From Promethearchaeati archaeon (GTDB lineage: Archaea; Asgardarchaeota; Atabeyarchaeia; Atabeyarchaeales; Atabeyarchaeaceae), in NCBI GenBank assembly GCA_019058495.1, contig JAHPYV010000003.1:1-62717 (forward strand): a stretch of 62,717 nt of DNA, in the 5' to 3' direction. This document shows positions 30,923-31,046 of the stretch, piece by piece; position 1 is the first letter of the stretch, and the number at the start of each line of letters is the position of its first letter. Made by a program: the position numbers and the translations under genes. Under the pieces are notes generated by a model. The model made no database searches. It was not told the DNA's origin and worked only from the letters and a program-made list of their open reading frames with translations.

Positions 30923-31046
30923 TGCTCCGGGCGGGATTTGAATTCGCGAGCCCTTCCACAAAGGGATCGGGGCTTCCCGCGTCAAAGGCTCGAAGGGCCT
31001 CTATCCTGTCGGACTCTAGGAGATGACCGGACTAGACGACCGGAGC
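30923..31046 (-). tRNA. tRNA-Glu(TTC) with two introns (D-loop 31008-31024, T-loop 30943-30975); CCA encoded at 30920-30922
   Basis: Acceptor GCTCCGG/CCGGAGC; anticodon arm GAGGC-CCTTCGA-GCCTT; T-arm GCGGG-[33 nt]-TTCAAAT-CCCGC; BHB CGCG[GGA]AGCCC..GGGCTCGCG[AAT]; spliced length 74 nt. Confidence 0.85.

Follow-up and report, generated by a model that had tools for sequence, protein, structure and literature searches.

An Asgard archaeal tRNA-Glu(UUC) gene with a T-arm intron and a probable D-loop intron

Results

The window, by which we mean the whole stretch of 62,717 nucleotides that was analysed, contains on its minus strand, at 31046-30923, a tRNA gene of 124 nt with the anticodon TTC, read from the sequence as tRNA-Glu(UUC). 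The gene comprises three exons separated by two inserts, all on the minus strand. Exon 1 (31024..31046) carries the 5' strand of the acceptor stem, GCTCCGG, the D-stem strand GTCT and the D-loop portion AGTCCGGTCA; it was delimited by alignment to intronless Asgard tRNA-Glu genes, and its boundary is the same as in the relatives of family f5 described below. Exon 2 (30976..31007) consists of A21, the D-stem strand GGAT, the anticodon arm GAGGC-CCTTCGA-GCCTT with the anticodon TTC, the variable loop TGAC and the 5' strand of the T-stem, GCGGG. Exon 3 (30923..30942) supplies the T-loop TTCAAAT, the T-stem strand CCCGC, the acceptor strand CCGGAGC and A73, and CCA is next in the DNA. A candidate promoter with a BRE/TATA-like element, CCAAAGTATATTT, lies at 31100..31112 on the same strand; it is predicted from resemblance, and the putative TATA starts 60 nt upstream of the 5' end of the tRNA gene.

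The window also encodes an archaeal 23S rRNA, an RNase P RNA and a eukaryote-like actin (PF00022, 457.7 bits). The actin was matched in 54 of the 59 genomes sampled from the phylum, with up to 84% identity over nearly the full length, and it points to an Asgard archaeon as the source. In one relative (G003 C1:534612-535776) the match to actin is broken into two pieces that lie in different frames.

The unspliced tRNA gene (30923-31046, minus strand) is called neither by ARAGORN nor by Rfam at its gathering threshold. When both inserts are removed, ARAGORN reports tRNA-Glu(ttc); when the D-loop insert alone is removed it is silent, and when the T-arm insert alone is removed it returns a false tRNA-Leu. 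The case shows why automatic annotation misses interrupted tRNA genes of this kind. A covariance model trained on eight Asgard tRNA-Glu sequences scores 61.6 bits on the unspliced gene, its match spanning exactly 30923-31046. This speaks to the extent of the gene and is not independent evidence for it, because the spliced window sequence is one of the eight training rows. After removal of the introns the sequence folds into a cloverleaf with the anticodon UUC and a Glu-type body, as expected of an archaeal tRNA-Glu(UUC). The gene, its strand and its anticodon are as an earlier note on this DNA had described them, and the anticodon loop is, as it had stated, uninterrupted at 37/38. That note had named an intact tRNA-Glu(TTC) elsewhere in the genome as an observation that would speak against its reading. 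In searches of the assembly (284 contigs, 94% complete), no second tRNA-Glu(TTC) gene was found; the only other Glu-like gene seen is a tRNA-Glu(CTC).

To judge the exons, the spliced sequence was set in one alignment with seven tRNA-Glu genes that come from the same phylum and have no introns. All of its stem pairs (21 of 21) are kept, and three stems contain paired changes. U3-A70 in the acceptor stem replaces C-G, and C12-G23 in the D-stem replaces G-C; both are unique to the window gene within the alignment. The first T-stem pair, G49-C65, is a paired change that the window gene has in common with one relative. Two genomes of another family (L115 and L116) also have this altered D-stem, GUCU paired with GGA-. 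The exons of this gene, as judged from these comparisons, are under constraint.

The 33-nt insert in the T-arm (30943..30975) lies at position 53/54 and presents a strict bulge-helix-bulge. Its outer helix is TTTGA/TCAAA, its central helix CGCG/CGCG and its inner helix AGCCC/GGGCT, with bulges GG^A and AA^T; it has the two 3-nt bulges, the 4-bp helix between them and the flanking helices by which the archaeal motif is defined. Only 19 of 200,000 mononucleotide shuffles of the intron reached the central and inner pairing at the fixed position, as did 12 of 50,000 dinucleotide shuffles. Chance does not account for this motif, and the proposal that the T-arm is split here by 33 nt with such a motif is confirmed. 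The same site is interrupted in three other tRNA-Glu genes (L157, L158, L145), in a tRNA-Asp (L151) and in a tRNA-Gly (L160).

The insert in the D-loop (31008..31023) offers a more relaxed motif. Its central helix, CGGT/TCCG, forms three of four pairs with one mismatch, the bulges are CA^T and AC^A, and the inner helix is CTC/GAG; the central, inner and outer helices each achieve three of four pairs. Since 7.5% of shuffles match this motif, it is by itself only weakly better than chance. Further, a different fold is favoured for the D-arm in isolation (−11.5 kcal/mol, compared with −2.3 for the motif), so that the motif is not the minimum-energy structure. The case for a D-loop intron is therefore comparative rather than energetic. 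Relaxed motifs are common in the set that we compared; an inner helix is absent, for instance, from several introns that this genome has at 37/38. An origin of the insert by tandem duplication within the D-loop was considered from the likeness of CTAGTCCGGTCA and CTAGAGTCCGACA; this likeness is not significant, as 9% of shuffles score as high.

The comparison with tRNA-Glu genes of related genomes, which the earlier note had suggested as a check, is informative here. The tRNA-Glu(UUC) genes of family f5 (L157, L158 and L145) possess D-loop introns of 14-17 nt in the same register as the window gene, and in these the central helix is strict (CGGC/GCTG). They also have T-arm introns at the same 53/54 junction, with three of four central pairs. 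They differ from the window gene in acceptor stem and in intron sequence, and each has a third intron, absent from the window gene, that breaks the anticodon loop next to or within the anticodon itself (33/34 to 34/35). A second point of reference is the tRNA-Glu(CTC) gene of the same genome (L064 1501-1615; G000 C81:96004-96118, minus strand), which is interrupted at 37/38 and in the T-loop near 59/60 and has an uninterrupted 11-nt D-loop that ends ...CGGTCAA. Excision of 16 nt from the window gene would leave a D-loop of 11 nt, AGUCCGGUCAA, which ends in GGUCAA like that of this paralogue and has the length found there and in the intronless Asgard tRNA-Glu genes.

These comparisons bear on the length of the D-loop intron, which had been put at 17 nt (31024-31008) with a mature tRNA of 74 nt. 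The smaller product, with its 10-nt D-loop, would be structurally acceptable and is accepted by ARAGORN. However, a 17-nt intron pairs worse at strict spacing, with an inner helix of two of four pairs, whereas the loops of relatives and paralogue are 11 nt long and an intron in the f5 register would measure 16 nt; we consider the longer intron improbable. The insert thus appears to be an intron as claimed, most likely spanning 31023-31008, with a length of 16 nt rather than 17. With an 11-nt D-loop, as in relatives and paralogue, and the register of the f5 genes, the mature tRNA should therefore be 75 nt long.

The genome encodes proteins that may carry out the splicing of this precursor. Two of them, encoded at G000 C271 and C254, belong to the tRNA_int_endo family (PF01974). 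The open reading frame of the first, the alpha subunit, retains all three residues of the catalytic triad (Tyr, His and Lys); the second, the beta subunit, is without the catalytic His. Such a pairing of a catalytic with a non-catalytic subunit is what an (alpha-beta)2 enzyme calls for at the level of genes. The alpha subunit is nearest to 3p1z_B (160 bits), which we take to be an endonuclease subunit of Aeropyrum pernix, and the alignment of the two runs through an N-terminal segment, GQPxxVxKPK, presumably the Crenarchaea-specific loop with its lysine. This loop confers broad specificity on the endonuclease (PMC6379350). The gene set fits an (alpha-beta)2-type enzyme, which would accept relaxed motifs. 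A gene for the ligase RtcB is also present.

Discussion

Taken with the compensatory changes in the exons and the intron sites common to Asgard relatives, the endonuclease and ligase genes support the view, already put forward in the earlier note, that this tRNA-Glu(UUC) gene contains two noncanonical introns. In all likelihood the gene is functional and its precursor is spliced at both introns by the organism's own (alpha-beta)2 endonuclease, with joining by RtcB. In the mechanism that we propose, the two-subunit enzyme would cut the precursor at four places. The T-arm intron would be offered to it as a strict bulge-helix-bulge at 53/54 and the 16-nt D-loop intron, at 20b/21, in a relaxed form of the motif that an enzyme of this broad-specificity class would tolerate. 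RtcB would then join the three exons, and the resulting tRNA, 75 nt long, would have a normal cloverleaf. Transcription of the gene, actual cleavage, the exact cut sites in the D-loop, the order of splicing and charging of the product are matters that we infer.

Two other readings would have the gene used differently or not at all. The T-arm intron alone might be spliced, with the D-loop insert retained in a D-loop of 27 nt. The weakness of the D-loop motif, and the ability of the insert to form a hairpin of its own, would be in keeping with this, but the f5 relatives have D-loop introns in the same register with strict central helices, and with the insert excised the D-loop is as long as in relatives and paralogue; retention is thus very unlikely, and we know of no cytosolic tRNA with so long a D-loop. 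Equally doubtful is the notion that the locus is a decaying tRNA-Glu pseudogene that has fallen out of use and for that reason has acquired the inserts and a C at position 33, since, the C and the weak D-loop motif notwithstanding, all stem pairs are intact with paired changes in three stems, no other tRNA-Glu(TTC) was found in the 94% complete assembly, the T-arm motif is strict and the intron sites are common to relatives.

The C at position 33 merits separate comment. The anticodon loop is CCUUCGA (30990-30996, minus strand), with the C at 30995, and it differs from the U33 that is usual, although not strictly defining, for tRNA-Glu(UUC) and that is present in the relatives checked and in the tRNA-Glu(CUC) of the same genome. 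C33 is unusual for an elongator tRNA. A precedent exists in the tRNA-Cys of Sulfolobales, for which C33 together with G27-U43 has been reported (PMC7668247); the window gene likewise has both. The C may be a sequence error, may be tolerated as such or may be edited to U. There is a slim chance that the C is real in the organism's only tRNA-Glu(UUC), so that GAA would be decoded without U33 or the base would be edited to U; it could then mark where an anticodon-loop intron was once lost, and in the f5 genes an intron is still present next to this position.

Noncanonical introns with bulge-helix-bulge motifs at 20/21, at 53/54 and elsewhere are known from the tRNAs of Thermoproteales and other Crenarchaeota (PMC4090602, PMC4033280), and reviews include these two positions among the known archaeal sites (PMC4090602). 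The window gene resembles these cases in the D-loop region, the T-arm position, the motif and the class of enzyme; it differs in belonging to another phylum and in the relaxed central helix of its D-loop intron. A closer parallel is found in Atabeyarchaeia and Freyarchaeia, where 92-95% of tRNA genes have introns that are often noncanonical, and over half of the genes have several (PMC11291895). By its gene content the present genome is likewise of the Asgard phylum, and nearly all of the tRNA genes seen in it are interrupted, often at noncanonical sites and often more than once. The twice-interrupted tRNA-Glu is a real and expected further example of this known Asgard pattern.

What the gene adds is that the sites 20b/21 and 53/54 of tRNA-Glu recur from one Asgard family to another, with introns of unlike sequence. 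In the portions of the tRNA-intron literature available to us, we found no account of these two tRNA-Glu sites recurring across Asgard families with a third intron in f5 that the window gene lacks. With two sites recurring in this way, and an anticodon-loop intron found in one lineage but missing from this gene, it becomes possible to trace gene by gene how Asgard tRNA introns were gained and lost.

About 25 tRNA loci were seen in searches of the genome, and by inspection, in which not every locus was resolved, only two (Pro CGG and Ala TGC) are plainly uninterrupted. A tRNA-His(GTG) gene elsewhere in the window (57929-58042, plus strand) has a 39-nt intron (57942-57980) at about 13/14, whose bulge-helix-bulge is strict (central helix TGGG/CCCA, bulges ATT and TGA, inner helix ACGCTTC/GAAGCGT), and Rfam aligns this gene only as a tRNA lacking the D-arm. 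In a tRNA-Ser(GGA) gene of the same genome (L011 1501-1622; G000 C270), an apparent 32-nt intron, ..GGCCCA[TTTCAC..GTGAAGGCTAA]CGGC, occupies an unusual position in the 3' strand of the acceptor stem, at about 68/69, with a central helix GGCC/GGCT and an inner helix TTCAC/GTGAA.
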